Below, piece by piece: positions 2,771 through 49,700 of a stretch of DNA of 64,000 bases. Source of the stretch: Sanderia malayensis (taxonomy: Eukaryota > Cnidaria > Scyphozoa > Semaeostomeae > Pelagiidae); assembly GCA_013076295.1 (NCBI GenBank), contig RQOL01000882.1, forward strand, positions 1,674,001 to 1,738,000, given 5' to 3'. A model generated the notes under the pieces. That model was not told where the DNA came from and made no database searches. It saw only the letters and a list, made by a program, of their open reading frames with translations. Made by a program: the position numbers and the translations under genes. Positions within the stretch are counted from its first letter, which is position 1; each line of letters starts with the position of its first letter.

Positions 2771-4187
2771 TCCTTTTCGCATTTTTTTGCCAGTTTGCCA
2801 AGGACTTTTTCATTACACTGTCACTGATAAAACAGCAATGAGCCCACAGTATGATCTTACTCTTTAGCATTAAATTAAATGATTAAATTAGAACTGATGA
2901 TTTGATATTGTCTTTGTGAATCACCCGTTTTTTCTAAACGCAAATCTGTCAACAATACAACAAACAGGAAATATTGAATGACCAATACCCAACGATTACA
3001 GAAAAAATGGGTGGGGAGGGGGGGGGGTTAAGCCGGCGGAACTGACTATCAATTCATCACACACTTGACCCCCTGATTTAAACAATGAAACTCAATAGAT
3101 ATTGTTCTGTAAACAATGAATACGTTGTATTGCGGTCAACTGAAGGAGAAAATGATCAACGGAAAACGCTGGCGTGTCTAGTTGTGCAACACCCGATTGC
3201 TGACGAAAGTGAAATTAACTTAAACTAGTAAAGCTGTATGCTTAACTCTATTGTCCATATCTGCTTGCAGGACTGGTACAAATAAGAATTAAACTTCCAC
3301 TCCAATAGTGTCCCTGAAAATATTCAATATTCCTGACATTAAATATTCCTGAAAATTGAGTACAGTCAAATCTGCATAGATCGAACTCGTGTAATTCGAA
3401 CTCTATTTAATTCGAACGAAATTCTCTGCCCCTTCAATTATCACTAATGAACCAACTCTTATATAAAGCAAACCTCTATAAACTCGAACGTTTTGTAATT
3501 CGAACATTTTCACCCTTCCCCCACTTTGTTTAAATTAGACAGAGTTGACTGTATTAAGATTCTTTGCGGAGTAAAATTTGGACAAGTTTAACAAATGGAG
3601 ACCCAGATGCCAAAAAGAAAATGACACTTACAGAGCACGTCATGCGCAGATGAAGCTAAACTCATAGCTAAACACTCCGAAATACGACATAAAAACAATC
3701 CACCTCGTTGGGGCAAAAACACGTGTCACGTCAAATAACGCTTCGTGATTGGCTACGACTCCATTCTTTGTAATTAAGGTCGCAAAACTAGGACAAATCA
3801 ATGATGCGAACTTTCCATACATGGAAGGCATACGTGATTTACTGATTTAAGCACTATCAACCCACTAATAAATGAGATAAAAACACGAGTGTCTAGAACT
3901 TGCAATATTTCCTGCTATCAAAAGAAATCACCGTCTCTAAGAACAAGAAAGCAGATTTAGCGAATCCAATGAAGGCTGCAATCATTAGCATAAAAGTCAT
4001 TGACCATTAAACATTGACTACTTGAGCATATATTCGATGTTAACATCTTTAAGCGGCAATGCTATAATTCCAGCAATTTCATATATTATACAGGAAAACT
4101 ATTAAAGATAAACATTGAAGATATTGTTGCGACAAACTGGCAGATAACTAAGTGAACTATTCAATCACCGATCATAAACATTGGAAA
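2771..4187. other. Convergent intergenic spacer (MACPF / Rab11 3' ends)
   Basis: No convincing exon on either strand. It contains a poly-G run near 3018-3028, one inverted-repeat element (3361-3553, listed separately) and AT-rich sequence. The minus-strand open frame at 3640-3831 has no splice context or recognisable protein content. Confidence 0.5.
3361..3553. mobile_element. Pogo/Tigger-like MITE, copy 1
   Basis: Starts TACAGTCAAATCTGCATAGA and ends GACAGAGTTGACTGTA, with internal repeated attcgaac words. Terminal inverted repeats, flanking TA and the CAGT...ACTG termini fit non-autonomous pogo/Tigger-type (Tc1/mariner superfamily) elements. No transposase frame is present. Confidence 0.7.
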
Positions 4188-4600
4188 GTGATTAATGGAT
4201 CAGAATAAATCATGAATCAGAGTAAATCATGAATCAGAGTGAACCATGAATCAGAGTGAACCATGAATCAGAATGAACCATGAATCAGAGTGAACCATGA
4301 ATCAGAGTGAATCATGAATCAGAGTGAACCATGAATCAGAGTGAATCATGAATCAGAATGAATCATGAATCAGAATGAATCATGAATCAGAATAAGCCAT
4401 CACCAGCGAATAATGTATCAGAGTGAATCATGAATCAGAACGAATCATGAATCAGGGTGAACCATGAATCAGAGTGAATCATGAATCAGAGTGAATCATG
4501 AATCACAACGAATCATGAATCACAACGAATCATGAATCACAACGAATCACGAATCACAATGAATCATGAATCACAACGAATCATGAAACAGAATAAACCA
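4188..4600. repeat. 17-bp minisatellite GAATCATGAATCAGAGT
   Basis: About two dozen tandem copies of GAATCATGAATCAGAGT with variants (gaacc, cacaac). It ends roughly 145 bp beyond the Rab11 stop codon and therefore lies around or just past the Rab11 polyadenylation region. No coding content. Confidence 0.9.
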
Positions 4601-4669
4601 CGATTGATAAATCATATTAATTATATAAAGAGCTGAGCAATATTTGATGCTAAATGTCGACTACGAGTT

Positions 4670-4675
4670 TTTATT
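4670..4675 (-). promoter_or_regulatory. Rab11 candidate polyadenylation signal
   Basis: AATAAA on the minus strand, about 70 bases past the Rab11 stop codon (4745-4747). Position and motif fit a cleavage/polyadenylation hexamer. Confidence 0.5.
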
Positions 4676-4744
4676 ACACTCAACAGTGTTAGTCAGTTGA
4701 GGAAGAAAAATAACACGTTCATTCACTTACTACTACTGCTGTTG

Positions 4745-7700
4745 TTACTGGCAACAATTTAACTTCTTCCGTTGGTCATTTTCAGTCGTCGGTTGAACGT
4801 GGATTGGTCGAACGTTGTTGCTAACCTGAGCGTTTTCTTGATCATTTGCATCTCGGATTTGCTTCTGAGAAACGATGTGATAGATTTCTGAAAAAAAGAA
4901 GACGGTAAATAACATCTCTTGTCTGATATCGAGATAGAAATAAACCAAACTTGGCTTGAGAAAAAATAAATTTTAAATGCACGAGTCTATCTATCTATCT
5001 GATACGTGTTCGTTTAATTTAACATGGCGCAGCTAACTACGGAGTGCCATAACGGTCTATTATTTGCTAAGTATTCATCATTCGCTACAAAGATTGTTCC
5101 ATCTTGCTTTGCCATCACCACCCTTGCTCTCTCAAGATCTTTTGCAATCATTTTCATCCATAAGAGTACAGTAAACGCCCGCGTATAAGAACCGTGAATT
5201 CTGCCTCCAGCCTATTGTTCAAATACAATAGCCTATTGTTTTTCTATTGTTTTGAGCAGGGATTTCAGCCCGCAAGGTTTTTAACTCACTGGTTCGTATA
5301 TACGGGTGTTTACTGTATATTGTACTGTACTGCACTGTACAATGCACAAGGAGAAGAAAAGACAGTAAAAGACAATTCATTGAAATTCAGAAGAGTGACA
5401 TACCTTCAAGAATATTTCTAAATGCAAGTTCCACATTGGTTGAGTCTAAAGCAGACGTCTCTATAAATGACAGACCGTGTTTTTCTAGAAGAAAATTACA
5501 AAAAACGTTAGTGTATAATGATACATCATCAAGAGACGGTTAAAGTAATTGACGTAAATTCATATTAAATTAAACCATCCATGGAAAGAAGTGAGTCCCC
5601 CTCCACAGATAATTTGGGCATTCACTAAATAAGACTGATTTTCAATTCACAATGGGCTTGAAATTGTTGTAAGAAAACTCCCTTTCATTTCTTATCCTCC
5701 GTTCAAGATTGGGCGACTCAACAGAGCTCAACTAAATCTGAATTTAAATGTATAGCAAAGAATGAAACAAACTACTTTGACAAAGCCTCCACCTCCTTAA
5801 AGGAGTATCTACTCTAAAGAGCATTAAGTACATAACATATGTAGATTCAACAGTACCTAAAGATTTGAGAAAACTCGCATCTTAAAGGAGCATCTACTCT
5901 GAAGAGTATTAAGTGCATAACTTATGTAGGACTGAACGGTATCTAAAGAAACCACTCCGAGAAGACCCGCACCTTAAAGGAGTGCCTACTCTGAAAGAAT
6001 TAAGTGCATAACATGTTTTAATACCTGAGAATGCTTTTGCTTCTTCAGTTGGAACGGCTCTTAAGTGTCTCAAATCGCTTTTATTCCCAACTTGCATAAT
6101 GACGATGTTTGAATCTGCATGATCACGCAACTCCTTCAGCCATCGTTCAATGTTCTCATATGTGATATGTTTGGCAATATCATATACTAACAGAGCTCCA
6201 ACAGCCCCTCTGTAGTACCTGGAAATGTGTAAAAAAAGTTAATGCTTGTTCATATGCAAGTGTATTCAGTTACTCGTTCTTGCCACACAAACTTTTTTAT
6301 TAGAAAGTCATTCATGAGAAATTGTTTTATAAGAAAGTAGTACTGGGATTTGGAAAGTGTTAAGAAATTCTGCACCAGATTTTTAAGACCCGAGAAAATT
6401 GAAAAATCAAAGAAAAATTAATATTCAAGCAGAAAAACCTAATGTTATGAATATAATATATTATCTTCGGCATTATAATGTTTAAAATGTAGGAAAATGA
6501 GAGAGGCACAACTGGAAAGATTATTTAAAACATTATTTCCCAATGGCATTCTCTTTATACTTGTGTCTCAACTGCCATCTTGTTACTACCTCCAATATAA
6601 TAATTTGGTCATCATTATCATTCTGCAGGTATGTTAGAATCATGGAGGAGGGCTATTGTTCCCATATGCTTCCCCAGTAATTATAAGGCCCCCAAAAGGC
6701 AAAAGGGTGGGGGTCAATAATGTTGGAATCACTTACGCACTAGTAATGGCTCGGTATCTTTCTTGACCAGCTGAAATAGTAATGCAAAAATTGTATTAGA
6801 AAGAGCAAGTAATCAGGAAATATCGAATTTTAACACAGGCTGGGGGTTGTGACAGCTGTGCAGAAAACTTTGGCTTGCAGTCTGAGAGCATAGAATGTCA
6901 TTTAATGAATATCCGGGGTATAAATTTACAAATCTTGGAAGGATGAACAGCTAAGTAGGGTGACAATTGGTAAATGGTGGTCTTAGAGATTTGCGAATTT
7001 CAAGTTTGAATCCAGAAATGGTTGAAAGTACCGTGGGCCTATAATTCAAACCCATGACAGCTAGTAATCAAAGATACACAATCTTAACTGCTTCATCACA
7101 ACTACAAACATATCCATCTGAACAAAATGAAAATAGCTCACGTATGAAGTGATTGGAGGAATAAATAATGAGCATGCAAAGGAAAAGGGCATAATGACAG
7201 CGTGCATCATGAAATATATCCATTGTCAAGCAAAATAAATAATGTTACTCAAAGGTAAACAAATCAAAATCTTAAAACACGATTGGCTTATGTTACGACA
7301 ACAAGGATTAAACAACGATCAGTAGCTTACTGATGCAAGCAGGTTAGAAGAGAATCAAAGGGTTTGTTTCATTGTCAACAGATTAATTTGGACTCAAAGT
7401 GGACTTGTTCAGAATTAAAAGATTAAATTGAATTCATTCACGGAAACATAAACGTCATTGAGAAATTTGAGTAAAGTTAGTTCACTCAAAATCTAAAAAT
7501 TCATGTGGATTCTAAAGATTCCTTTGGATTTCATGCCAGATGATGTATTAGGATTAAAAAGATCAATTAGGATTCAAATCGATGATACATGTAGTTTGAT
7601 GAAGATGTGTCTATTAAAGAAGGGGGTCAACAACGATAAGTCATTCATTAACTGAATAAAGACAGATATGCAAAGTTCTGTGAATTCTAAACATTATACA

Positions 7701-10700
7701 GTTGAATTGAGCTGTGTTGAACTTGCATGGGAAAGAAAATCTGCTCAATCACAGTGGCAGTTCGAGATACCAAAGACTAAATTCACACTGGGAAAAATGG
7801 GAATCCGTTCGAGATAACCAAATTTGAGTTAGTTAGGTTTGATTTTATTGGATCGATAAAGATTGCAAGTACTTGCTTCATGATTCATTGCGATAAACTC
7901 CAAGTTTATTCTGGCAACAAGATCTATCTATACATCTATTTATACAGTATTGTACAACAACCTACATTGGTTATTACGTACATGTTTGGTTAGTCAGTTA
8001 CAGTATTAATTATTAATTATTAAAGTTAAATTATTATTAGCTTAAAATAAGAAAAATATAAGGGCTATTTTATACAATTAAACTGTTCAAAGAAGGACGA
8101 AAGACGTTATGAGTCAGGTAATTATCAACAAAAAGCTTACCAGTATCCCAGATTTGTGCCTTGATGATTTTGCCCCCAATTTGAATACTTCTTGTAGCAA
8201 ATTCCACTCCGATTGTGGATTTCGATTCAAGGTTGAACTCATTTCTTGTGAACCGTGACAACAAGTTTGATTTGCCAACACCAGAATCACCAATCAACAC
8301 AACTACAAAGAAAATGAGATTGTTAAAACTCAAGGTCTTCAAACCAACTTAGTTTAATCCTATTCTATTATAATCCCATTGTAATGCTTTTAAAGAAGTA
8401 TTTCATAGGGATTGGCAGTGTGTGCCAGTCCTGTGGTAGTAAGTTTTGTCATGTCAATAATAGAATTGCTTTCTGCTCTGCGACTCGCTGTATAGCCAAC
8501 AATTTGTGGCTCATCTGCTACTGTTTGCAGAAACAAATCCAGAAAATTCCTGCTTAAAACGAAAAAAATAGCTTGGCTGGAAAACTTTCAAGTTCTCAAA
8601 CGAGGGTTTTATTGTGCATGGAAGTAACGCATGAATTTTTAAAACCATGTATTAGATTCAACATGCGGTGAAATCCTGAAACTTTTCAATGCACCCAAAT
8701 ATAATTTGGCAACTTCTAAAGGAAAATAAGGATTCTAATTTGATTGAAAATTAATTGTCAGACAAGACTTAATTATCAGACAAGACATAATTATCAGACA
8801 AGAATTAATTATCAGACAAGAATTAATTATCGGATAAGAATTTATTATAAGATGAGAATTAATTATCAGATGAGAAGAGCACCAGCCTTGCTCGGAATGA
8901 GATTGCACTTCTTTTCCGTTTAAATGTAGTGAGATATCACAGTTTATTCTGGCCTCTCAATCCATCAACTACAGTTAGAAGAAGAGCCACACAGTGCAAA
9001 GGGATATATTACATTTTTGTATGCACAGTAGTAATTGCTTGTTTTCGTTTTTGTTGAAATACTAAATGATATTGGGTCCATACCCAATATTCATTGAAAT
9101 ATTGGGTATGGACCCAATATAAATATTGGGTATGGAAACGAAAACTTGAAATATTCATTAACCTCAGAAACCTCTGTTGCACGAAGCAGTAAAAATGCAT
9201 AATTTGTATTAGGAATTATGAAAAAGGTGATTAAAGGACATATTCATTAAGGCAAATCCAATAATTATTTCAAAAAGAAAAAAATTATTTCCTTATTTTT
9301 ATTGTTGGCTGTTTATAAAGTACCTGGCTCAAAGCCTGCTTTCTCCTTTGTTGAAACTCTGTTCATGTACACTTATTTTTTTAATACGCAACTAGACTTT
9401 GGTCCAGCCCTGAAAGTTGCTTAAAGTTTTGGATATTTTAGCCCTCAAAGTTGCTTAAAAGTTGCTTAAAATTGTTTGTACCTATAACAGCCTCTCCTAA
9501 GTTCGTGGGACAAAATCATCAACTGTAATGCCTACAGCACAAGACTTAAGAGACAGTAAGTGTAAACATGTTACTCAAGAGCTTCAACAGCACAGTGAAC
9601 ATTCCTGCCCAGTTTTGGCAAGTTAAAATAAATGACGGTTGAATTCTTAGTTGCTAACAGTAATTCAATTGAGCCCTCGAGTTGCTTAATGTTAGGGTCA
9701 ATCCAGCCCTAGTTGCTTATTGAGCAGTTGCTTATTAAATAAAATAAGTGTACTGCATATGACTCACATAGTGTCATGAAAATTGCACATGACAAACAAA
9801 ATCGTTGAAGCTTTGATAATTGAATGCTTTGTTATATGATACAAAGAGCTCATGTGGGGGCAGATAAATTTGATTACAAATAAATTGAAATTGCTTCCTC
9901 AATAATAATCAACCTCAATAAATTTGCAGTGATTAACATTTTCAAATTTACAATATTGTAAATTCAGGTATTATTTAACAACAAAAAATTCAGCATTTTG
10001 TAGACTGCATATAAAATGGTCTTTTAAGAATAATAAACGTACCATTTTTGGTACACAATTGGAACAAAATGAACAGAATAGAAAATGATTAAATCAAAAT
10101 TTCAAATGGGGGGCTGGGATTATTAGGATTGTTAGCCTGGGTGCATATGGGGTGGGGTGTGTTCATTGGCAGCAAAAACTTAAGCACACTGAAATTAAAT
10201 GAAAATTATAAAGACAATTCAAAATTCTCCAACATATTAAGCAACCCGTCTTGAAAGAAAACAAACTCATTGAGGTTGAAGGGCATTTTAAGTATCTCTT
10301 GGGCATAATTAAAGAGATTACAAAATCTGAAATGCCTTTGAAGGGCAAAGCGAACTTGCACAAAGTTCGTAAGCACAAAGAGTAGAACTTGTTAAAAGTT
10401 GAGTTGATGAATGATTTCGTTTGATAAAACAAATGAAATACGTCTTTGAATATTCGCAACCGAAAAGCAATGAGTTGAGTTTCGTGTTAAATTCAATTTC
10501 CTCATTCAAATTGTCTCCAATTTCGAAATGCGAAATAGTCTCAGCTTGAAGTTTATTTCTCGCATTCACGTTGTTCGGGTGGCTTTTCTTTTGAGCAATA
10601 TTAGGACGACGCTTCTCTCGCGAAAAATTGAATTCTCAATTTATAAAATCTTATAGTTGGTATACCCAGAAAATTTATATGTTTTCGTGTCCTGGATGGA

Positions 10701-11694: not shown

Positions 11695-14600
11695 TTATCC
11701 ACAAGCCTCGCTTTGATTATCTGTCGCATTGTTCTTATTGTTGCCTTGGTCATGTCCGGCGTCACCATTGCAAACTGTTAATTGAGTCTCTTGGCCTTTT
11801 AACTGTTGGGCAAATTTAGCACATCGCTTTTTGTGCGTGGACCAATGTAATTCTTGGCAATTCCTGCTACAATAATCAACCTGGACAGAGAAGCAAAGAC
11901 AGACAAAATCGATTATAGTTGTAAACAATGCAATTCAATGCAGTATGAGGCAATGATGAATAACAACAATGCAATTCAATGCAGTATGAGGCAATGATGT
12001 ATAATAACCATGTTTTTCAAGTTACTTCTAACCAATGACTCCCCTGATAACTAAAGCCTATTCTTAAAGTGCCCCTACGGCTTTATTTTGTTGGCTAAAA
12101 CTATAGATTTGAATGCGTTGAATTTGACACTGTTTATATTTTCTTGATCTGATGAGTAGTTGTTGAGTTACGAGCGTTTATATTCACACCTTCGTGTCCC
12201 ACTTTTAGGACTGGGTAGAGTCCACTATGACATCATAGTTGGAACACATCAAATTTACAACCGAATCTACAATCTACAAGCGAAGCTTTGCGATAAATTG
12301 AGCATTTTAGTTAGCTTTCAACAATATACAGTTTCCTTGTAGAAACAGTGTTAGAGCGCCTCGTAATAAAAAAACCGTCAAAATGGTTCTCTATAAAACA
12401 TCATGTACAGCAGTTCGTAATGAACACGGGCGGTATATGCCTATACTATAACTATATGATAAAACTATAACTATAACTGTATGATAAAACTATAACTATA
12501 ACTGTATGATAAAACTATAACTAGTATAACTGTATGATAAAACTATAACTATAACTGTATGATAAAACTATAACTATAACTGTATGATAAAATGAAGCAC
12601 ATACCACTTTGCATTTTCCACATTTCTTAACATCTTCTTTACGACCACATGTCGCACAAGTTTCCGAGAAATTTGCACTACAAATAAAATTACAACAGAA
12701 TCAAGCAATCGAAAATTTTCTGCCTAGGCAGTTGCTAGAGGTAACAAATACGATACAAGTCGAGGGGATGCAGTAATTTGTCCACCATGCTGTGTTCCGT
12801 CTCTTATGTCACAATTTACTCGTGAAGGCCTAATGTCCGATACGCATTAACTAATTTTTGAAAATATTTCAAGCCACGCTCTTACCAGTATATCGAGAAG
12901 TTAAGAACTAAAATTTTGTTTTATCTGTGATAAAGACATCCACGTTGAAACCACAATGCTTGAAAGTGAATCAGCGTCAAAATATTGGTTCAATTTATTT
13001 GTTAACGTGACTGCATGAATCTACCCCTCCCCCAGCCAATTTTACCCCGCCCCCAATCGGTAATTATGCACCAAAATGGGTATATTTTAAGACAGGCTAA
13101 ATTGATAACTGAAGGGTATATGTAAAGGCATATGTGAAAGTATTTCTAAAGGGATAAAATTACCTTTGTAGGCCATTGATTGATTGAGTTAGTGCAGAAA
13201 GTGCATTTATTTCTTTGCTCTAAAATGTCAAAATAAAAACAATGATACATAGTAGCTACAGGGCGTCGTGGCATGACCCACCCTGTGAAAGCAAAATCGT
13301 TGGATTTGTCGGAAATTTTGGAGATTTTTCCACTTTGTCGGAAAATTTTCAGCGTTTGACTCACTTTTCGGAAATTTTTCGTGTTTGGCCCACCCTAAAA
13401 TTCAGGTCCCGCGACGCCCCCAAATAGCTATATAACGCAAAGTCAAGAAATGGGTAAGATTAGTCCGACTGCTAAAAGACAAAGAAGCATTGGCAGTTTT
13501 TAATAGCAATGCAGGACACGATGAAGTAAATAATGAAAAAGGTGCAAAAATAGAAAATGCATACCCGTCAAATAGGCAATAAAAAAGTCGAATTAAAGAA
13601 AAGATTTCAAGAAATTTTTCCCATCATTATCAATGTTTCCGTTTGTCTGTTCAGTGATTTTCATGGTAAGAATATAAGTTGATCATGTTATTAAAAGGAT
13701 TGTTTATGAGTGCGACATTTCAAGAGATACTTCTCTCTTCATTGGGCGTGCAATATGGTTACCTCCCCGATTGCTCTCATTGTGACAGTCGCTAAACAAA
13801 CAAACACCACAATTTCATTAGAACATAGTTACCTTTTCAGGATCAAGTAAGCTTGCCTGGAAAGTTTGAAACAAATTGGATTGTTGAAAGGGAAAGGTTA
13901 TGATGGATTCTAGGATGAAATCTTGAATAACGAGTTGGAAGCCATCTTCTTGCCGACCTTTGACCAACCTTGAAAGTAAATAGAAATTCAAGGTAACTAT
14001 TGCTTCATACTAAAACTCATTATGTATATTTTTATCTTACTTTATATTTACTCATCTTTATCTTAATTTATCCTTACTTGACTTCATCTTACTATATCTT
14101 AATCTGTCTTTATCTTCATTTATCTTTTCTTGTCTTTATCTTACTATATCTTAATCTGTCTTTATCTTATTTTGTATTTTTCTTACTTTATCTTTTATTA
14201 TCTTACTTTATCATTACCTGTCTTTCTCTTACTTTATCTTTTTTTATCTTTATCTTACTTTATCCATACCTGCTTTTATCTTACTTTATTTTACCTGTCT
14301 TTCTCGCACTTTATCTTGACCTGTCTTTCTCTTACTTTACTTTACGTTTGTTTATCTTATTTTATCTTAATATGTCTGTATCTTAATTTATCTTAATATG
14401 TCTGTATCTTGATTTATCTTTTCTTGACTTTATCTTACTTTATCGTTACCTGTCCTTCTCTTACTTTATCTTTACCTATCTTTATCTTACATTATCTTTA
14501 CGTTTGTTTATCGTATTTTACCTTTATCTATTTTAATCTTACTTTTTGATGAAGGCCGTGATGCCATCTTGCTTTTCGCCTGAACCTTTCCTCCATTTTT

Positions 14601-17600
14601 GGCACTTTTGAAGAATACACAAGAAGTAATGAATCTTCAAAGCAACAACTTCTCTGATGTCATTCTTGTAAAGTTTATCACGGATCAGATCTAGTGTCTT
14701 CTCAACTGATGCGAAATTGTCAAGCAGAATAATGTGATCTCTGATGAAGTTGCAAACCTGAATAACAGAAAAGAAATCGCATTTACAATCCCACACTGGC
14801 ATAGTTATCAGATCACCTTGCGGCAATAACTGTTCTTGTTGTTGAAACGTGTTGAAGCAAATGTTGATGCAAGAACGTTTATGGTGGCAGCAATTGCTAC
14901 AAGAGGAAGAACTGTTCTTGTTGAAACAATTGTTGCTGCAAGAACGTTTATGGTTCAGCAATCTTTGCTGCAAGAATTGTTCTCGTTGAAAAATTGTTGA
15001 TGCAAGAATACTATTGTTGCATCAATATTCTCTGCCCATCCCAGACAAACTAATCACAGGGACTCCAGTCAAATAATGTAGAGTTAGTAGAAATTAACCG
15101 TAGAGAAATAATAGATATTTAGATGCAAAATAACTGGATGGGTGTACAGTCGACTCTCGCTATCTCGAACTCGCAGGGGATATGTAAATTTGTTTGACAT
15201 AGCGGGAGTTCGAGATAACCGAGTTCGATATAGCGACATTTCTACTGTATAATTACAGTCAGAATAAAAAAGGTGGGTGAATAAATGCGCCACCGCATAT
15301 GAAAAACGATTACTTGAATTGTCACACACAAAATCTCACACAAGTTGTTAATCGCAGTTACGATTTAATTTGCAAAAATCAATTTTAAAAAACCTGCTTC
15401 ACTGTCTTCATATTTTGTGCAATAAATGAAGAAAAAAAGTGTAAGGACGATAAAAGAAAGGAAAAGTTATAAAAATTGACCATGTCCACTGGTCATTACT
15501 AAAATGATTCTAATAAATGCTTATTAAATTTCTCAGACTTTAAGCGGGGCGTTTACTGGAGGAACATTTTAAAGAGGCGGTTCATTGAAAGAGCAGTTTA
15601 AAGAGACAAGGTTCACGGGAGAAGAGGTTGTTCGTTAGAAAAACATTCAAAAGTTAGACGCTTATTCAAAGGGGTATTTTAAAGGGACATCTATAAACAA
15701 AGGCGTGTTAAAATAGAACAGGGGAACTTAAGACAAAAGCATTAATCAGAAGCATTACGATATGTGGCCTAATCTCTTGTTTTTGTTGTTGATCTTTTTA
15801 GCCGACGAATCGTCTGTATCGAATAAAGATTCTTCGTCTTGACAAATTAACAAATCTTCGTGTTGGATAAACGAATCTTCTGCGATAGGAAACAACGTAT
15901 CTGCGATAAGGAACGATGTATCTTCTGCGGGAGGGAAGGACGTATCTTCTGCGAGAGGGAACGACGTATCTTCTGCGGGAGGGAACGACGTATCTTCTGC
16001 GGGAGGGGACGACGTATCTTCTGCGGGAGGGGACGACGTATCTTCTGCGGGAGGGAACAACGTACCTTCTGCGGGAGGGAACGACGTACCTTCTGCGTGA
16101 AGTGACGGGCCTGAAACAAATGACAAAAAAATTAAAGCATGAATGCAGAGCATAAGAGAAATGTACCAAAACAAAGCAGATAAAACTCTTGTTGGAAGCT
16201 GCAATAGGGAACAAAGGTCTATGGGACACCTGAAAATTGCATTCGCTAATGCTATGCTTCTCCACACTTTGTTCCCTGTGAGCAGAATCCAACCCCCCAC
16301 TTCCCCCAAACAATGTTGTCTTGTGCACCAGTCCTTTCTCATCACCAAAGCCAAAAGAATTTCGGCGATATTGAAAATAACCGCCTCTGCAGACAACATC
16401 GTTTCGGGGGAGGGGGAGGGGAATGAAGTATGCGTGTAAAACTTGCTAAAATCCTCGGTGTCCCAGGACTGTTGTCCCCTATTGTATGTGCGTGATGAAC
16501 CTCTGATGGTCGGAAATACAAAATGGAAATTCCTGTCACTGAATTTTATTGCAAAAACTAGCAAAAGGGTAGGATGCGTTCTGCTGTCATTATTCCTCAA
16601 ACATGTAGTATACAACGCAACCCTGCCATAATCCATATAGTCGCTTTATCTTGATTGGGGCCCGTCAATAAAAGAAATCACTGTTGCCAGTTGGAAACTG
16701 TAGGACGTGCTACAGTCTCCAACTGGCAACAATATCGACAAACGATCAAACTGGTTCATAGAATCATTACTGCAAGAGAAGAAATGAAAATGGTAAATAA
16801 AAGAGTAACTCCTTACCTAGCGGTGGGTGGCATAATCGTTTTGGGTTTCTTCGTTGTTACTACGGGTAATGGAGGCTGTACTGTATTTGGAGCAGTCGTT
16901 TTTATTTCCGGTGGTTCAATGGTAACAACTTCAGTAGTTGGCTTAACTTCCGGTGGTTCAATGGTGACAACTTTAGTTGTTGGTTTCACATCCGGTGGTT
17001 CAATGGTTATAGCTTCAGTGGTTGGCTTCACATCCGGTGGTTCAATTGTGACTACTTTAGTTGTTGGCTTCACATCCGGTGGTTCAATGGTTATAACTTC
17101 AGTAGTTGGCTTCACATCCGGTGGTTCAATGGTTATAACTTCAGTAGTTGGTTTCACATCCGGTGGCTCAATGGTGACTACTTTAGTTGTTGGTTTCACA
17201 TCCGGTGGTTCAATGGTGACTACTTTAGTTGTTGGTTTCACATCCGGTGGTTCAATGGTTATAGCTTCAGTGGTTAGCTTCACATCCGGTGGTTCAATGG
17301 TGACAACCTCAGTAGTTGGCTTCACATCCGGTGGTTCTATTGTCACCACACGTTTAGGATTGGTTGGTTTGGCAGTCTTTTTTTCACCTGGTAAAGGAGG
17401 ACGCAGTGTCGCATCAGGCAATGGTGGTGGGGCCAAGGTCACTGGTGGAATTGGTGGAATTGGCGGAATGGGTGGCTTTAGTTCCGTTTGTTGCTTACCA
17501 CCGCCATCCAAACTAGCTGAAATAACAAATTTCAAGAGAGTGTTATTTTCAAACACCAAAACACCTATTTTTACAAAAAATAAGTACTCAAAAATCAGAA

Positions 17601-20600
17601 AAATCAGAAAGTATCCGCGGCAAAAAATTCAAGAATCTGATTTAATATGGAAAACATACAAAAATCCAGAATTTATATTATTTTATCTTGGGAATACAAA
17701 TTGTTCAACTTTGAAAGGTTTCAAAAATCCAGTACTGGATTTTGAAGTTAAGAAATTTTCCAGCACTATACTGGAAACTTTCTTAGCTCCTTGATGAGCT
17801 GAGTACTGCTTTCAAAACACTTTCGTATAAAAACATCTAATTCTCCTTCAACGAACTTCCTACAACCATTCCCACAGCAGAAAATACAAAATTCTTCCAA
17901 ACAAATTATAAACAATTTCAGTAACGCCCGACAATAAAAAATCGTTGCAATATATTAAATATCTATAATAATAGGCACCTTGATCATACAATCGAAATAA
18001 TGTGAACTGTAATAAAAAAAATAAATGTTACCCACCTTGACTATTCTCTGTGTTTCCAGAACTTTTCTCTGCGTCAGAACTTATCAATAAAATTGAAAAC
18101 AAAAAGCAAAGCAAAGTTTTGGCCATGGCGAAAAGAAAATCTTCGTTTTCCAAACTGAGTTGGTCAAATGCAAACGAAAGTGTTATGAAAAGACAAACAA
18201 ATCATGAATATAAATAATTCCTCGCAGACGAAAGGGGGCACTACAAGCCCCCGAGCCTACAGCCGCACGTATTTTCAAAAATCAAAATAGAAAACAAACA
18301 ACGCATGTCAGAACTATGGAGGAAATAAAAGGGAGTACCAGCATCGTGGCCCATTCCGATATTCAAAGAGCAAACTAAGTTGTCCACTTAATTGACCAAT
18401 TAGAAAAATCAGCAAAATAACTCTTCAAAGAGATGAAAGAGATGGATGAAAACATTCTACCATCTCATCCCTTCTTCCCCTTTGCTCCTCTACCTCTTTG
18501 TCCCATCTTCCCCTTTGTCCCCCTTGCTCCTCTACCTCATTGCCCGCCCTTCCTCTTTGCCCCTTTGCTCTTCTACATCTACTGTTTAATGAAACATATT
18601 AAACACTGTACACATCTTTCTTTTACGAAAAAGGCAATTCTGTACACGCTTTTTCCCAAGTAACCAAATGACACTAACATTTAACGAGCTGATACTACTA
18701 AAAACAAAGCCCCTAGGTAACGTTCCAAAATAAAATGCGTCTCTTTGCGTCTATGTAGTCTTTGATTGCAAAGTGGGGCGATTCAAATTAGGAAGCTATC
18801 AAAGAACGTTTAACAGTAAACTTGGTCAAAATAGGCCGCGAAACAAGGTACTTTAAGAGGTACTCTTAAAGTTGGCCTTGATGTTGGCTCTTTATGAAAA
18901 GACGTGTATCATGGGGCAGGCTTTCGGGTTGTGCGCCGCAAAAGGACCGACAGATCTTGAAGGATTTTGTTGCGGCTGTTCAGCAAAGACCGCTGCAAGC
19001 TCAAATTACTTGCGGTGCGTAATCGTGATTGTGAATTGACGTGAAAAAGCTGTTCTTTAAGCGAATGAATAACAAGAGAAAAGTAAAAGAGAGCCTTAAA
19101 AATATCTGAACACTGCTTCTTTTCTTGTTACTACGTCAAAAATGACTTGGCCCGTATGTAGTGTAATGTGTTGAGATGGCATTTGGAAAGAAAAAATGAA
19201 TGAGAACAAATTGGAATGGGGTGGGTCGTCTTGTTTATGAAGCTGCATTGCGCAAATGCATCAAAAAGAGCAAATTATTTCCATTGCGAAGGGAAGACAG
19301 AATAACAATAGTTCTCCATGTCCGCCTTCAACATTTAAGGGAGAAGAATAAAGGAGGATACAGAAAAACATTCCTTTATTTTCAAGGTACTTACGTTTAC
19401 TGGATGTAAATTTGTGATGTTGACAAATTTCTGCAACGGTTCGGCTAAAATTGGCGGCAATTTCGGCTCTTTCTCCAGACCTCCAAAAAACAGATGATAT
19501 CAGATATACAACACACCCCGTTAACTGTAGTAGGTGTTCAGGGGCGCAGATGAGAGTTCACACCCCCCCCCCAAAGTTTTTAAAACCCGGCCCCAGTTAC
19601 TATTTTTAGTGATGAAGTTGGTCCCGATCCAGCTGTGGGCTTGAACTGTTTCTTGTTTTCAATTAAACCGAGTTGTACCCTGGGTTGTACAATTTGGAAA
19701 CAATTTGGTCTTTTAATCGCACCCCCCTGAAAAAATGTTGGATTCGCGCCCCTGTCGGTGTTAACCTTACGTTCGTGCATATTACCGAAATTTAACTAAA
19801 TTTCGTTTAACAGAACATTATCAACGCTTATTCATATGCGAGTAAGCAAGAAATAATTGAAAGAACTCCTTAAAGACAAACATTGACAAGGACAGTACAC
19901 CCATTCTTTTTTGCCAAGAAACTATGCAAAATTTGATCCCAGGGCTTCTTACTTTCTTAGGGTTTGGTACCTAATTATGGTACGAAACGTTTCTTAGCAA
20001 ATCTCTTAAAATTGTTGAGATTCGTTACAAATATGTGGGAATGAAGTGCGCAAATTGTTTTTAACATTTTTTCTCGTTAAAACAACATAACAAGATTCTT
20101 AACTTCGTTCAGTGACACAAAATCTCCTACCAAGGTTTCCTATTTTTGAAAATAAGGGCCTACGGTTTCTTATAAAGGGTTTCTTATAAAAATAAATGGG
20201 TGTATTCAACCATACCCTAAGTTACTTGACTTTTGAAGCAATTAAATTCTAGCAAAACTGGTTACCTTGTGTTCGAGTGTAGTATTCTATTACAGATTTT
20301 GAAATGTAGTTGTTGATTAGGCTGACACAGCCATGTCTTCCTGAAAACAAACAAACAAAGTATTGGTAAACAAAGTTCAAGCCAGCAAAAAAGTCAACAC
20401 CAACAAAAGCAAATGATATAGTTACTTAATAAAAATTTGCAACAAATTCTATTGATCAAGTTAGAAAACAGGCGCAGTTCGTTTATACCTCCCACCCCTT
20501 GTAACAATGTTTCTGCATCTATACAGTAAATGGTTGAATAGACCCCCAACTCCGAATGAGCCCCCCTAAATAAACCTCCATAATTATTGGCAAGGATGGT

Positions 20601-23600
20601 GAGATAAAAGTATCGGCATATTGTGTTGCAAATAGCAGCGATCTCAATCCAATGGCTTTATTGATTGACTGAGTAAAACATAGGCAAATCTTTTAGCCAT
20701 GACTGATGTGCCAATTCTGGCTACTCCCAGCGACAAACACAATTTTGTCTTTGTTATTATCTTGCACTGCACCATATTTAACATTTCCTTAACTTTGATA
20801 TTCTGGGCATGATCTTTCAAAGACTGCATGTATCAGTTTACTTCACCATGTTAACTCTTATCGGCATCTGAACCGATAAGACCTTCCACGGTGAAGTGAA
20901 CAATTACAGTTCTATCAATTCCATAATTTGTTGTTTGATCTCCTCCAAGGCTACTCCCGCAACAAAGACAATTCTGTCTTTGTTATTATCTTGCACTGCA
21001 CCACATTTAACATTTCCTTAACTTTGATATTCTGGGCATGATCTTTCAAAGACTGCATGTATTAGTTCACTTCTCCATGCTAGCTCTTATCGGCATCTGA
21101 ACCGACAAGACATACCATGATGAAATGAACAATTACAGTTCTATTAACTTCATCTCCTCCAATCTTTGTTGTTTTGCATTTAACAATTCTTCTCAAAATC
21201 TCTTCCAAGGCTACTCCGGCGACAAACGCAATGCTGTCTTTGTTATTATCTTGCACTGCACTATATTTAACATTTCCTCAACTTTGATATTCTGGGCATG
21301 ATCTTTCAAAGACTGCATGTATCAGTTCACTTCACTATGCTAGCTCTTATCGGCATCTGAACCGATAAGAACTTCCACAGTGAAGTGAACAATTAGAGAT
21401 CTATTAGTTACATAACTTCATTTCCTCCAACCTTTGTTGTTTTGCATTAAACAATTCTCTGCAAAATCTCTTCCAAGGCTACTGCCGCGACAAATGTTAA
21501 ATATGCTGCAGGATAATAGCAAAGACAATTCTGTCTTTGTTATTATCTTGCACCATATTTAAAGTGTTTGTGCAAAGATACAAGGCTCTGTTTAAAAATA
21601 GATCGAAACTCATTTCAATATAGACATGCGCAGTACACCGTCACATAAACTGAACTGATCACATGAATATTTTGAGATCAGTGATGAGAACGGGAAGGGA
21701 ATGCTAAGTGTGGCAACAACAACAGGCCTAATGTTGGCCAACATCCACTCCGCGGCATCTCCAAGAGAATCAAAATGTAAACGACGTTTTATTCCGTCAA
21801 ATTTCTCTCACAATTTCTTCGCTCTATCACCATATCCAAGGTGTATGTGGTGTGCCTTTCCAGGTCTCTTACCGGCACGTTTGGCAGCTTTTCTTGGCGG
21901 AGAACGAAGCTGTGGATCACTGTCCACCATTTCCCAGTTCACTAATTTCATGGAAGAGAGAGACTGTTCATGTGAAAAAATTACATCTTCCCCTTTGCGC
22001 TTCTCTGATTGGTTAATAAACCAAATCAATTTTTAGCAGTTGCGAAAGCACACCGTTTAACCTTGCAGATTCCTTTTACATTTCCTCAACTTTGATATTC
22101 TGGGCATGATCTTTCAAAGACTGCATGTATTAGTTCACTTCACTATGCTAGCTCTTATCGGCATATGAACCGATAAGACCTTCCACGGTGAAGTGAACAA
22201 TTACAGTTCTATTAGTTCCATAATTTGTTGTTTTATCTCTTCCAAGGCTACTCCTGCGACAAAGACAATTCTGTCTTTGTTATTATCTTGCACTGCACCA
22301 TATTTAACATTTCCTCAACTTTGATATTCTGGGCATGATCTTTCAAAGACTGCATGTATCAGTTCACTTCACCATGCTAGCTCTTATCGGCATCTGACGC
22401 GACAAGACATACCATGATGAAATGAACAATTACAGTTCTATTAGTTCCATAATTTCATCTCCTCCAATCTTTGTTGCTTTACAATAAACAATTCTTCTCA
22501 AAATCTCTTCAAAAAATTTTCTTGCTTCCTTGATTCTTCCACCAATCTGTTTTCTTACAACTGGTAGGAGACTTTCAGCAACATAGACATTTCAAATATT
22601 TCTTCATATCAATTGGCCAGTCATAATACAAGCATTTAGTTTTCTTCTCAGATTAGGATCCAGCACTGGAGATCCATTTTATTTTATCTTCTTCAACCTT
22701 TCTTTATTCATTTCAAAATATTTTCTGATATTTCTTGTCAAATCAGAAACATTATACAACAAAACCATTTCCGCCAAACCAAACAGATTTGCAGCTGAGC
22801 TTAATTTTCACATCCGTACTCTTCATTCTCAACCATTTCAAATTAATTGTCTTTATTTTTGTTGTTGATTTCATTGGTGTTGTTTTTGATGTTGATTAAT
22901 CCAGATTGGTTTAAAGAAAAGAGCAATTATCAAATAATGTTGCGATAACTGTTATGAATAAGCCCCGTTTGTCTTCTGCGAAGCTGTTTTCATTATTTAA
23001 TTCCATCCAGCCAATGTTGAAATAATGTGGCTATTGCATTGAATAGAAACCCAGCCAAAAATTCATTTGTGCAAATAAATCCCAACCTCTGTGGTGGGGA
23101 TATTCAAGCATTTACAGTAATACAGAATAAAAAAAGATTTCATATGATTACTGTAGCGAGATGATAATTTTTTGAGATTTACCAACAAAGGCTCCCATCA
23201 TAGTAGCTGTCTTCTTGATTTTATTCTCTGCATCTGGGTTGGCTCCAGACTCCAACAACAATTTAGTGGTCTCCTCAGAACCTGAGTAAAATGTAAACAT
23301 AATAAGTACTTTAATCATAACAGTTGTAAACAGAGTTTAACTGGGTGCTGCTCGGGTGTGTGTTATAACAGTGCACCATGATAATGCAGGGTTGAAATGC
23401 GAACGCGCATTGACTCATTCTCGTAATTAGAAAATCTATGCACACGATTCCAGATATTAATTTTGGCGAGTGTGTATCTATCGGTGGCGAGTCTCCAAGC
23501 AGATGTCGCTGGATATGTACAGTTATAGCCACTGTTGGCCCTCATCACCCCGGCGTACAAACAGAGTCAGTAGCTGAATACGATAAGGTAAATGGTTTTT

Positions 23601-31400: not shown

Positions 31401-34400
31401 TCTGCTCTCTGTTTATGTATGCATGTATTTATGTATGTTTGTCTCTGTATGTATGTAAATGAAATGGCAAATGGGATTGAAAAATGCTGATAAATCGAAC
31501 AAGTAACAAATTGTAAATGAAAAACAGTAAATTTCTGAATCGTAAATCATTAATTTTTAAGGTTGTTTTTCAATGGTAAATACTGAGTCATAAAAAATTG
31601 ATGATTTATGATAGAAATAGGTCAAATAAAACATAATTTTTTAAATATGATCGTTTATATGTTTACGCGTGAAAATGCTTCATCTTTTTTAATAAATCAA
31701 TATTTTCTTCATCACCAAATTCAATATTCCCTGAATGTCAGTTGGTTGTTTCTTTATAATTTCTCAATGTGTTCGTAGCGTGTGGCATTGTTTTCATGAT
31801 TTACAATGAGGACAAGCAACATTCACAATTTGCTTTGTTTCAGTTATTTACTTCATATGGTTATTACTGCATTAGATAATTTAGATAATTAGGTTTCACT
31901 GAATGATAATGCTTTTCTTGGAGTTTGTCTGTAATTTAAGTTTGTTTTCTTCGTATATTTTAGGTACACAAGAAATCTTGTTGATGAAGGAAATGGAAAA
32001 TTTAATCTCATTGTGCTGTGCTGGAGCGAAGCCCAAGGCAGGTAAATGATGACGTGTGACGTGCAATGACGTATCAATGACGTACTTTTGATTGATCTCA
32101 TGATTATGACCTGGTGAAGATTATCTGATTACCACGATAGGCCTGATTCGTTTTTCAAGCGTTTTACGCAACAAGCTTCGCTTCCAATTACCAGTCAGCC
32201 AAACTCCCTCGAGGACCTCGCACTAAATATGTGACCTGAAATAGATTTAGCAAACATGCTGCCCCCTTGGTGTTTTGGCGCTCTATCCGACTGAAACAAC
32301 GTTCTTTAATAAAAGTTGGTTGCTTTTTGCGACAACTTTCGATGTGAATGGAACTACTGTTCTTTCACTATAAGCCTGCATCATTTTCTCTACACGTTTA
32401 GCAAAGAATGCTGACCACATAGTTTTTGATTATTGCTAGAATAGTTGGTGATTATTCCTAGTAGTTGGTGATAATTGCTAATGATAGGTGTGTTTGCTAA
32501 ACTACATTGGTAATAACTGGGAATTGAATTGGGAAGAACATCTTATATATATATTTGCCCCCCCCCCAATGTTTGTGTTTTTCACATTGTCTGTCCCATT
32601 GAATTTTGTGTCCTTGTCTGTCTTATTGAATTTTGTGTCCTTGTCTGTCTTATTGAATTTTGTGTCCTAATCTTGCGTAAATTTTTGTTTTTTTCTTAGT
32701 TGCATTCACGACCATGCAGATGCCCATTGCTTCATGAAAATTCTTGATGGCCAACTTCAAGAGTCCCTGTACGGTTGGCCTAAGGATGGCACCTCCAACG
32801 AGCAAATGGAGCCACTGAGAAAGAATCTCTACAACAAAAATGAAGTCGCTTATATAAATGGTATGTTTCAATTTGCATTTAATACCATCGTCCTGTTCGG
32901 TTTCTGGTTGATTTTTAATGTTTTGTGCTTTTTAAATAATTTCTTAATAATTAAATAATTTGTTCATTCGCATCACTCATTTTGCTGCAATAGGGGACAA
33001 AAGTCCCTGGGACAACTGAAAATTTCATTGGATAATACTGTGCTTCTGCACACTTTGTTCCCTTTGAGCAGAATCCGAAATCCGACCCCCCCCCCTCCCA
33101 AACAATGTTGTCTTGTGCACCAGTCCTTTCTGGTCGCCGGGTTAAAAGAGTTTCGGCGATATTGAAAATCACCGCCCCTACAGACAACATTGTTTTGGGG
33201 AGGAGGGGGATGAAGTATGCGTGTAAAACTTGCTAAAATCCTGGGTGTTCCAGGGCTTTTGTCCCCTATTGTGGGTTCTCAAGAAATTACGACTGAAATC
33301 TTTATTATTGTTGTGAGTATGGCTATGATCAAGGTTGTAATTATGACCGCTTATTTCGAAGTCTGGTCTGATATAAGGAGGCGCTTATTCCAGGAAATAC
33401 GATATGCAACATTAATTCTGTTGCAACATCTTAAACTAAGCGAGCGAGCGATGACTCTTACCTTTAAACTAACTCACGAGCAATGTATTTTTCGTCGTTT
33501 AGATTCAATTGGTCTTCACAGAATTGAGAATTTGAGCCACACCAACCGAGCTGTTTCCCTACACTTGTATTCGCCTCCATTTGAATCGTGTGGCGTGTTC
33601 GACGAGAGGTCTGGAAAGAAGCGATCCTGTAAGGTGACATTCTGGAGCAAGTATGGAGTTCGAACACCCTATGTGGTGAGTATGCCAACATTATTAGCTA
33701 TTAGCTACTACAGTAAAATCCCGATAACTCGAACCTTCATGGGACCGATGAAAATGGTTCGAGTTAACGAATGTTCGAGTTATCGAGGGTTACAAAGTAC
33801 CAGCAACGTTTTCAAGGGGCATGCAAAATGGTTCGAGATATCCAAGGTTCGAGTTACCGGGGGTTTGAGTTATCGTGATTCTACTGTACTCTGGTTGCCC
33901 TATTAAGCCTATACCCTTCTTATAAAGCCCTAATAATTCCTCTTTTGAAGCAAGATTTTGAATTAAGCCCATCCTTTATATCCTAAATTGCGATAGATTT
34001 TTAAATCGTGATTGATTATACCACAGAAGCTCATACAAACTACGTTGCAGTGATTTCACACAAACAACTGAAATTTACTTAATAAATTTATCAGCTGGCG
34101 GTCCACTCTCCAATAAGCCCCCCTTGGAATCAAATTACCCCCCTCCGGGTTTGATATTTGAGTATTTCTGTTGTCTGCGATGAGCATAAATCTAAGCATG
34201 CAATAGTGGACAAATGTCCTTGGAACACTGGTAAAAATAGGAAAACGCTTGGAACCTGTCGCTGGCTTTATGCAACCTCGGACTTTCTCCAAAACAATGT
34301 CGTTGTCTCAGTGAGACCTTTTATTGTTTTATAGCTCTTTTGTGTCAGGGAAAAGCTAGTGGATTTCCTTTATTTGCGAAGTAGCCCCACTTTACTTATA

Positions 34401-46748: not shown

Positions 46749-49700
46749 ATGGCTAACGAAGATAGAGTTAAAAACTTTTTCCCTGGACCTTCTGCACTTC
46801 CAGTTGAGGTGAGTTTCGCTGAATTTCTCGGCAACGTGCGATTTTCCTAATTTGGCCTACACTTCTCTTAATATGGCAGATTCCTTATTTGGGATTCGTG
46901 CCAAAATTTGAAACTTCTCATCACCATGGTGTAAAAAAGTGGGTATAATATTAATTCCTTGTAGTAAATAATTAGTTTGTTTCGAATTTCGTTTTTTCTA
47001 AAAAATTATTTGAAGAGTTATTATTTTAAATCGTTGTTTTGCCCTTTCCTTATTTTGACGAGGACATCAATTTTGGGGAGGCGCCGCGCCCCGTTGTTAG
47101 GCTTTGTCTTGCTCGTGTCTACAAATCTATTTTGATTGCAATTAAAATCAAATGAATAAATAAATAAATATAAATATGCAAGAATGTAAACTGATATGAA
47201 AGGAAACGTGTGTTTTGCCTAAATAATCTGCTACGATAGTTGTGATAAGTTACTGATTATTTTTTCATTTCCTTTACTTTGAAAATGAAGTTCTTGAAAT
47301 TTGCATTTCAAAAAGTTTAACACTCGAAGCAACCACAACACAAAATAACAGTGTATTTCAGTCTTCAAACATGGATGTTAACAGTGAAGGTTTTCCAATG
47401 AAATAAAGATGTTAATATTAATTACAACTTTCATATTTTTTGTTAGGTCCTACACAAGGCCGCGAAAGAAATGTTAAACTACAAAGGGCTTGGATATGGG
47501 GTCATGGGTAAGTTTTGGATCCTACTTCCTCATTATCACCCGGGGTAATGTCTGTGCAGTACAGTGGAGGCTGTGCAGTACAGTGGAGGTTGTTCAGTAC
47601 AGTGGAGGGATAACATCAGTACAGTGGGGGGATAACATCAGTACAGTGGAGGTTGTTCAGTACAGCGGGGGGCTAACATCAGTACAGTGGAGGGATAGCA
47701 TTGAGTACAGTGGAGGCTGTGCAGTACAGCGGAGGGCTAACGTCAGTACAGTGGAGGGATAACATGATTTGTGTGGGGGGATAACATCAGTACAGTGGAG
47801 GCTGTTCAGTACTGTGGAGGGATAACATCAGTACAGTGGAGGGATAACATGATTCATGTGGGGGGATAACATTGAGTACAGTGGAGGCTGTTCAGTACAG
47901 TGGGGGGATAACATTAGTACAGTGGAGGCTGTGCAGTACTGTGGAGGGGTAACATCAGTACAGTGGAGGGATAACATGATGCTTTTGGGGGGATAACATC
48001 AGTACAGTGGAGGCTGTTCAGTACTGTGGAAGGATGACATCAGTACAGTGGAGGGATAGCATGATTCATGTGGGGGGATAACATTGAGTACAGTGGAGGC
48101 TGTTCAGTACAGTGGAGGGATAACATCAGTACAGTGGAGGCTGTGCAGTACTGTGGAGGGGTAACATCAGCTTCCTGTCAACTTACGCTATTTTATAAAG
48201 AATAGCTATTTTTCACACTCTACCTAGGCAACCATTAGTAAATGCGTTACCCAACAATGAAATACACGCTTTTTTTTATAAGGAACCTAGCTCGGGCCTA
48301 GTTCTTTAAATTTCTTATTTTGAGACCTCTTTTGACCACTTTGTAGTTCTAAAAGTTCCTTAATTTTAAGTTCGCATTTAGTGGACATAATTAGTACAGA
48401 CGCAAGAAAAGCATTCAAATTCAACGTTTTGCTATAAACTTGTGAAATAATAACAGGTAAAAACATGAAGAAGCTTCATATAATGCAAAAGTACTGAAAA
48501 TCAAGGGAACCGGCTTCCTAATTGTAAATTGTGCGGAAATATAAATATATTCAAAATTAAAAAGTTCCTTAGCGACTTGGCCTTTAGTAGCAAAAGTTCC
48601 TTAAGTTTTTTGACCTTCTACATGTAGGTTCCTTATAAACGGTTCCTTATAAAAAAAAAAGCGTGTATAAGAAAAAAATTACACGCATGTAATGTAAAAA
48701 ATGTGTCGAATGTGTTATGAGATGATAAAACTAACTGAAGATACAATAGAAGCAGAAATTATTCACATCCGCAACCGCAAGACTGTAAAAAGTTTGCAAA
48801 TATCAATGTCTCTCAGTCAAGTAGTTTAGAATTTATTTACTCTAACTCATGTAGATCAAAGGTGTTTGTCATAGGTAGATTTATGTTTTGCTTGGCATAA
48901 CTTAAGACGAGTAAGAACAAAAGACCTTCATTTTTAGGTCAATAAAATAACACAACAAAATCGCCATCTGAAAACGGCATGGTTGCGCTAAGGCCTCCGC
49001 TGTACTGATGTTATCCCCCCACAGTACTGAACAGCCTCCACTGTACTGATGTTATCCCCCCACAAGCATAATGTTATCCCTCCGCTGTACTGATGTTACC
49101 CCTCCACAGTACTGCACAGCCTCCACTGTACTGATGTTATCCCCCCACTGTACTGAACAGCCTCCACTGTACTCAATGTTATCCCCCCACATGAATCATG
49201 TTATCCCTCCACTGTACTGATCTTATCCCTCCACAGTACTGAACAGCCTCCACTGTACTGATGTTATCCCCCCACACAAATCATGTTATCCCTCCACTGT
49301 ACTGATGTTAGCCCTCCGCTGTACTGCACAGCCTCCACTGTACTCAATGTTATCCCTCCACTGTACTGATGTTAGCCCCCCGCTGTACTGAACAACCTCC
49401 ACTGTACTGATGTTATCCCCCCACTGTACTGATGTTATCCCTCCACTGTACTGAACAACCTCCACTGTACTGCACAGCCTCCACTGTACTGCACAGACAT
49501 TACCCCGGGTGATTATTTCAATTTGTTATTGAATAAGAGAGCGACTTGAAAGAAATACACGTATTTATATGTTTATAAAGATACTATTTTATTTTTTCCC
49601 GAAGCTGAATTATCCTTGGAATTTTTCGATTTTGAACTCTAAAATATTTGAAAGTAATTCCTCCTAGCCATGTTTTGCTTTGTGAGCTCAGCCCAGATCA

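Follow-up and report, generated by a model that had tools for sequence, protein, structure and literature searches.

Secreted low-complexity proteins restricted to a single taxon are a known kind of gene product, and contacts between arginine and tyrosine residues are known to drive condensation. Cnidoin carries a signal peptide and a large putative propeptide ending in Lys-Arg, an arrangement whose conservation extends to diverse nematocyst proteins according to passages of the study (PMC4321713), and poly-gamma-glutamate and a chondroitin matrix appear as Hydra nematocyst polyanions in the accessible part of a further study (PMC10014300). The antimicrobial peptides (AMPs) of Hydra, as far as the available sections of PMC10945409 go, are mostly bipartite with a strongly biased charge distribution, typically have a complex cysteine pattern and usually form paralogous families. 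In scyphozoan preprohormones, RRR sites and non-amidated peptide variants have been described (excerpts of PMC6909153). Here we analyzed a 64-kb stretch of the genome of the jellyfish Sanderia malayensis (the window; bases 1674001-1738000 of contig C836) that contains, on its minus strand, a predicted three-exon gene for a 367-residue protein with two different repeat arrays, the second of which forms an Arg/Tyr-rich C-terminal tail. We tentatively interpret it as a genuine jellyfish gene, probably restricted to its taxon, whose product would be a fast-evolving, secreted and cysteine-free block polyelectrolyte that binds extracellular polyanions through this tail, a reading that we consider plausible and hold with reserve.

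Gene model, reading frame and protein architecture

Joining the three minus-strand segments in phase yielded 367 amino acids and a stop codon at 15800-15798 (Table 1). The exons, their coordinates, the splice sites and the matching phases proposed by a first-pass annotation of the window were thus all recovered. Both introns are bounded by GT and AG; the donor and acceptor sites read CAAG/GTGGGT and TTATTTCAG/CTAG for intron 1, and CTAG/GTAAGG and TTTGTTTCAG/GCCC for intron 2. Because intron 2 starts AG/GTAAGG, its retention would yield a chain ending in ...PPTAR followed by an immediate stop. Exon 1 translates as MAKTLLCFLFSILLISSDAEKSSGNTENSQ. The signal peptide call is based on a hydropathy rule and the Ser-Asp-Ala end, not on a dedicated predictor; of the three phase-1 ATG-to-donor segments present in 17560-22516, exon 1 is the only one with a signal-like hydrophobic stretch, in keeping with the annotated secretory start.

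Open frames come cheaply in tandem arrays: a given frame stays open in 58% of random 24-mers, and is open with at least three Lys/Arg and no Asp/Glu in 2%, and the window holds 104 tandem-repeat rows, overlapping rows counted. The question was therefore in which frame the copies are conserved. To answer it, the differences of each copy from the majority codon were scored as synonymous or non-synonymous in all six frames of each array. The sense frame of the eleven 42-bp units of exon 2 showed 29 synonymous and 18 non-synonymous differences (p=1.5e-6; expected synonymous fraction 0.28), and that of the eight 24-bp units of exon 3 showed 8 and 2, respectively (p=0.0013). One antisense frame of each array also scored (28/22, p=4.5e-5, in the exon 2 array; p=0.0068 in the exon 3 array), as is expected where codon third positions coincide. 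The remaining four frames yielded p values of at least 0.41 for exon 2 and at least 0.75 for exon 3; for the other two sense frames the values were at least 0.47 and at least 0.75. In the +1 frame of exon 3, which is acidic (SFPPAEDT...), 2 synonymous differences stood beside 7 non-synonymous ones (p=0.75). All these p values are optimistic, since they are not corrected for six frames and treat the copies as independent; a 126-bp higher-order unit, found in the exon 2 array by a tandem repeat scan, means that the copies are not.

The eleven 14-residue repeats and the RRRYVVPS domain named in the first-pass annotation are both present, the last 14-residue unit being degenerate and the tail comprising eight full 8-residue units. 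The first 14-residue repeat starts at residue 87, directly after Lys85-Arg86. The regular tail array ends at 15871; the last ~24 residues keep RR-aromatic-V with different Arg codons, and the final units retain this pattern and have lost Pro-Ser. Residues 268-367 contain 37 Arg, 13 Tyr and 19 Val and are devoid of Asp, Glu, Lys, His and Cys, which gives the tail a net charge of +37. A strong difference in charge between the two halves had been annotated. It holds for the extremely basic tail with its complete lack of Asp and Glu, but the first half is only mildly acidic: the net charge is -13 for residues 87-238 (isoelectric point 4.4) and -6 for the entire mature part before the tail. The accompanying suggestion of a cationic peptide kept neutral by its own pro-region is weakened by the same figures, -6 facing +37. 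Composition analysis bore out the annotated absence of cysteine from the mature chain. By the charge-hydropathy rule, residues 20-86 and the tail fall on the disordered side.

Table 1. Predicted features of the minus-strand gene (positions in the window)
Feature	Coordinates	Strand	Description
Exon 1	18036..18126	minus	91 nt, phase-1 end; signal-peptide-like MAKTLLCFLFSILLISSDA and first mature/pro residues
Intron 1	17517..18035	minus	519 nt, GTGGGT...TTCAG
Exon 2	16817..17516	minus	700 nt, phase-2 end; Pro-rich segment, repeats, short basic Pro/Thr stretch
Lys85-Arg86	17350..17355	minus	Sole Lys-Arg pair before the tail; possible propeptide cleavage site
Repeat array of exon 2	16888..17349	minus	Eleven 42-bp units, 14-residue VVTIEPPDVKPTTE-type
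Intron 2	16111..16816	minus	706 nt, GTAAGG...TTCAG; in-frame TAA at once upon retention
Exon 3	15798..16110	minus	Arg/Tyr tail and stop codon
Tail, residues 268-367	15801..16100	minus	SRRRYVVP-type units (eight full, 8 residues each) that give way to degenerate RR-aromatic-V units

Intron 2 also contains a near-perfect hairpin (16682-16731; 25-bp arms, no spacer, 92% complementary), possibly the remnant of a small mobile element.

Relatives, copy number and other Arg-tailed genes

No Pfam family and no PDB sequence matched the window protein at E<=1, and a protein database searched twice, at E<=0.001 and at E<=1, gave no hit among the 8000 candidates that were scored each time, candidates being limited to 0.55-1.75 times the query length. 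These results agree with the first-pass annotation, to which no family with this layout was known. The same database holds a EukProt protein that is 100% identical over 88% of the query from a second gene of this genome, on contig C815 (see below), so it very probably includes Sanderia malayensis; the window protein would then lack a gene model in it or be represented by a model that differs greatly in length. Three exact motifs of the protein were absent from the 5.39 million open-licence papers searched, outside which most subscription journals lie, and scans of the window with Rfam (gathering threshold) and for tRNA genes produced no matches.

The S. malayensis genome itself was searched in 918 contigs comprising 184,004,477 bases. 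The whole protein gave 118 matches, namely its own three exons and 115 others, all of the latter at E>=2.9e-6 and 19-35% identity; the first 86 residues returned their own two exons and one further place at E=6. The extra matches are weak and of low complexity. As far as these searches reach, the gene appears to be a singleton; distant or repeat-rich copies could escape them. Inspection of the three match lists (118, 31 and 126 matches) covered the places named in this text, and loci L035-L039 were screened by an Arg filter only. The predicted layout, with a Lys-Arg site and an Arg/Tyr tail, is a new form of taxon-restricted secreted low-complexity protein, and the gene is well supported as sequence, odd and an apparent singleton. 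Additions to the first-pass annotation are the position of Lys85-Arg86 at the start of the repeats, the apparent singleton status and what seem to be Arg-rich repeat tails on other genes.

Several further matches were rejected as relatives. The one in C809 (43% identity, E=1.1) falls in a low-complexity WRRYARTS array frame in which no similar context was seen, and those in C478 belong to a large YSLQGIL/STRYSLF array. The array at C815:2068500-2076500 lies among exons of a candidate LDL-receptor-related gene, which we take to be such from its YWTD repeats, and so looks intronic. The match at C836:679917, whose gene context was not seen, is part of a short GRRGVKF-repeat frame of 101 residues on the same contig as the window (C836:679917-680141, L057).

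Two further secreted-type genes of this genome appear to have Arg-rich, unrelated arrays at their C-terminal ends. The gene on contig C815 (L031, C815:1669000-1678000; 4096-7656, minus strand) is an uninterrupted 1186-residue frame with a signal-like start and a long helical-looking region, followed by a cysteine stretch that appears EGF-like in our own reading (factor VII was reached only at E=0.16), by a laminin-EGF domain (E=2.2e-6) and then by ~340 residues of (Y)RRR(G/Q/R)VV repeats. In three relatives (39, 39 and 34% identity) the head is shared up to and including the laminin-EGF cysteines, beyond which their sequence is a different one and has no such tail; one of them, P0002, carries Ldl_recept_a. 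A database model of the C815 gene, P0001, treats 220 nt bounded by GT and AG as an intron, and its product lacks the laminin-EGF region and runs on in an acidic TEDV frame. We think that this model is mis-spliced, the other option being an alternative isoform. The codon test of the C815 array gave p=0.49 for the Arg frame, 0.22 for the acidic frame and 0.0029 for the third sense frame.

The gene on contig C405 (L067, C405:2298000-2306000, minus strand; hand-chosen exons 4975-4912, 4716-4612 and 4474-3849) seems to have the layout signal peptide, acidic exon, basic exon. A signal-like start is followed by an acidic exon of 36 residues (net -8) and by a tail of 207 residues, 117 of them Arg (net +123), which begins GLKQSDPIFGLLVKLAMRLAARRLIRKAVRR, a start resembling an amphipathic cationic helix. 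The second donor, GTACTA, is unusual, the Arg frame of the array scored p=0.68 with no frame below 0.05, and in a search of its own genome the gene matched only its own exons. Both genes resemble the window gene in their signal peptide and their Arg-rich, acid-poor C-terminal array, with a unit of 7 residues (8 in the window); they differ from it in their heads, their arrays and their weaker frame support, and are the weaker cases. No homology was seen between them and the window gene; what would recur is thus a design and not a family.

Proposed function and competing explanations

The in-phase GT-AG model, the signal-like exon 1 and the synonymous bias of the sense frame in both arrays support a genuine gene for a secreted block polyelectrolyte. 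Further support comes from the Arg-aromatic-Val pattern that outlasts the regular array in other Arg codons, from a tail of +37 with zero acidic residues, and from the two additional secreted-type genes that seem to carry Arg-rich repeat tails. The signal peptide would direct the protein into the secretory pathway, and a propeptide comprising residues 20-86 may be removed after Lys85-Arg86, by analogy with nematocyst proteins. The Pro/Thr repeats would provide an extended, mildly acidic spacer, possibly O-glycosylated. The tail, with an Arg cluster, an aromatic residue and a Val every 7-8 residues, could use charge and cation-pi contacts to bind extracellular polyanions and gather them into a condensed matrix, in which tyrosines might form cross-links. 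The likeliest sites would be the nematocyst capsule first, and mesoglea or mucus next.

The position of Lys85-Arg86, considered together with the Cnidoin propeptide and the polyanions of the nematocyst, suggests a nematocyst role. Like proteins of the Cnidoin and minicollagen type, the window protein has a signal peptide, a possible propeptide ending in Lys-Arg (putative cleavage site 85-86) and a repetitive, Pro-containing mature chain; unlike them, it has no cysteines or cysteine-rich domains and no Gly-X-Y collagen or silk-like sequence, and it has an added Arg/Tyr polycation tail. The likeness is one of layout; sequence matching covered Pfam, PDB and the protein database.

Several observations weigh against this interpretation. 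A protein without cysteine cannot join the disulphide-linked capsule wall, and the RRR sites of the tail could be open to convertase cleavage. Both residues 87-238 and residues 239-267 are classed as ordered by the charge-hydropathy rule, and disorder of the stalk is therefore not claimed as shown. Splicing and expression of the three-exon model are predicted from sequence alone, and polyanion binding and the extracellular location are likewise predictions. The searches yielded neither a homologue nor a database gene model that matches, so between-species conservation is lacking. AATAAA was not found between the stop codon and 14700; variants of it occur downstream of the stop at 15666, 15557, 15525 and 15369. 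Lastly, the Arg frames of the C405 and C815 genes are unsupported by the codon tests, and P0001 uses the acidic frame.

The tail charge of +37 would also suit a host-defence precursor, in which a less charged front carries an Arg-rich, membrane-active C-terminal part that becomes active after secretion or release. Precursors such as arminin and periculin are likewise secreted, encoded by short exons and biased in charge between two parts, a charge bias that the accessible sections of PMC10945409 ascribe to most Hydra AMPs, and the C405 gene, with its signal peptide, -8 exon and +123 tail, looks AMP-like. The front of the window protein, however, is long and near neutral (-6), so that its charge is biased but unbalanced against the tail, and the tail itself is a tandem repeat. 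Neither the complex cysteine pattern nor the paralogues that the same sections report for Hydra AMPs were found in the window protein and its own genome, respectively. A defence role is thus left open without being favoured, and we regard it as unlikely. A multi-copy peptide precursor, from which convertases cutting at each RRR would free YVVPS-like peptides, appears improbable. A signal peptide and some ten short units separated by RR or RRR recall scyphozoan neuropeptide preprohormones, and the RRR sites and non-amidated variants described in the available text of PMC6909153 keep this role open; the survey script given there sought GR/GK sites and would therefore have missed a precursor like the window protein. 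On the other hand, there is no amidation Gly and no pyroglutamate Gln beside the units, the Pro/Thr spacer is large, and the loss of Pro-Ser from the last units means that no single peptide is conserved. Matrix or adhesive, polyanion-binding and cationic-peptide roles are not separable on sequence.

The gene model could also be partly wrong, with exon 3 belonging to another transcript or read in the acidic frame, or with exon 2 made terminal by intron retention. Its three exons are known only from the DNA, no database protein matched the product, a retained intron 2 would end the chain at once, exon 3 has a second open frame (+1, up to 15755), and P0001 of the C815 gene, once past its 220-nt GT-AG intron, reads the repeats in an acidic frame. 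We nevertheless rate such an error as quite unlikely: phases and splice consensus fit, synonymous bias is present in the Arg frame of exon 3 and absent from the acidic one (2/7, p=0.75), and P0001 drops the laminin-EGF cysteines that the three C815 relatives keep. A real gene in the plus-strand frame 16655-17794, of which the minus-strand reading would be a shadow, has hardly any likelihood. That frame, with 379 residues, exceeds the 271-residue sense frame, and one antisense frame of the array is biased (28/22, p=4.5e-5). This bias is expected where third positions coincide and is surpassed by that of the sense frame (p=1.5e-6); moreover, the plus-strand frame encodes a hydrophobic Gly/Ser/Val string that overruns the array on both sides. 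On codon scores and frame character it was rejected as a gene.

If expressed as predicted, the protein would be a block polyelectrolyte of natural origin whose Arg/Tyr code is regular. Its proposed function would be relevant to the ways in which cnidarians condense polyanions, be it in nematocysts, mesoglea or mucus, or arm their surfaces, and would offer a model of extracellular condensation driven by Arg-Tyr contacts. That Arg-repeat tails apparently recur in one genome on secreted genes with no relation to each other leads to the testable idea that coding-exon minisatellites are a recurrent source of polycationic domains. In a more far-reaching version, which we consider doubtful, jellyfish would repeatedly convert such minisatellites into polycation tails of Arg and aromatic residues on secreted proteins of unrelated kinds. 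The window protein would then act as a purpose-built, soluble polycation by which a polyanionic matrix, for example nematocyst poly-gamma-glutamate, is packed or cross-linked through tyrosine, and would represent a cysteine-free class of scaffold beside the minicollagens.

Neighbouring genes and repeats of the window

At 1-2199 on the plus strand, a MACPF domain (E=2.4e-30) is encoded in the frame 1-783 and PAN domains (E=7.3e-11) in the frame 1579-2196; the two frames possibly belong to one gene. Neighbouring exons at 5912-8348 and 11698-11934 (minus strand) and at 33214-33906 (plus strand) matched a Ras-family GTPase (E=3.4e-18 and 9.1e-19), a MYND finger (E=4.5e-6) and a cysteine dioxygenase (E=1.7e-13). 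Two minisatellites, 47576-48170 and 48993-49472, have reverse-complementary units (CAGTACAGTGGAGG and CCTCCACTGTACTG) and lie ~0.8 kb apart, like the arms of an inverted element. A 3.8-kb array at 58043-61837 consists of ~239 copies of a 16-bp unit and is open in three plus-strand frames over more than 1300 residues.

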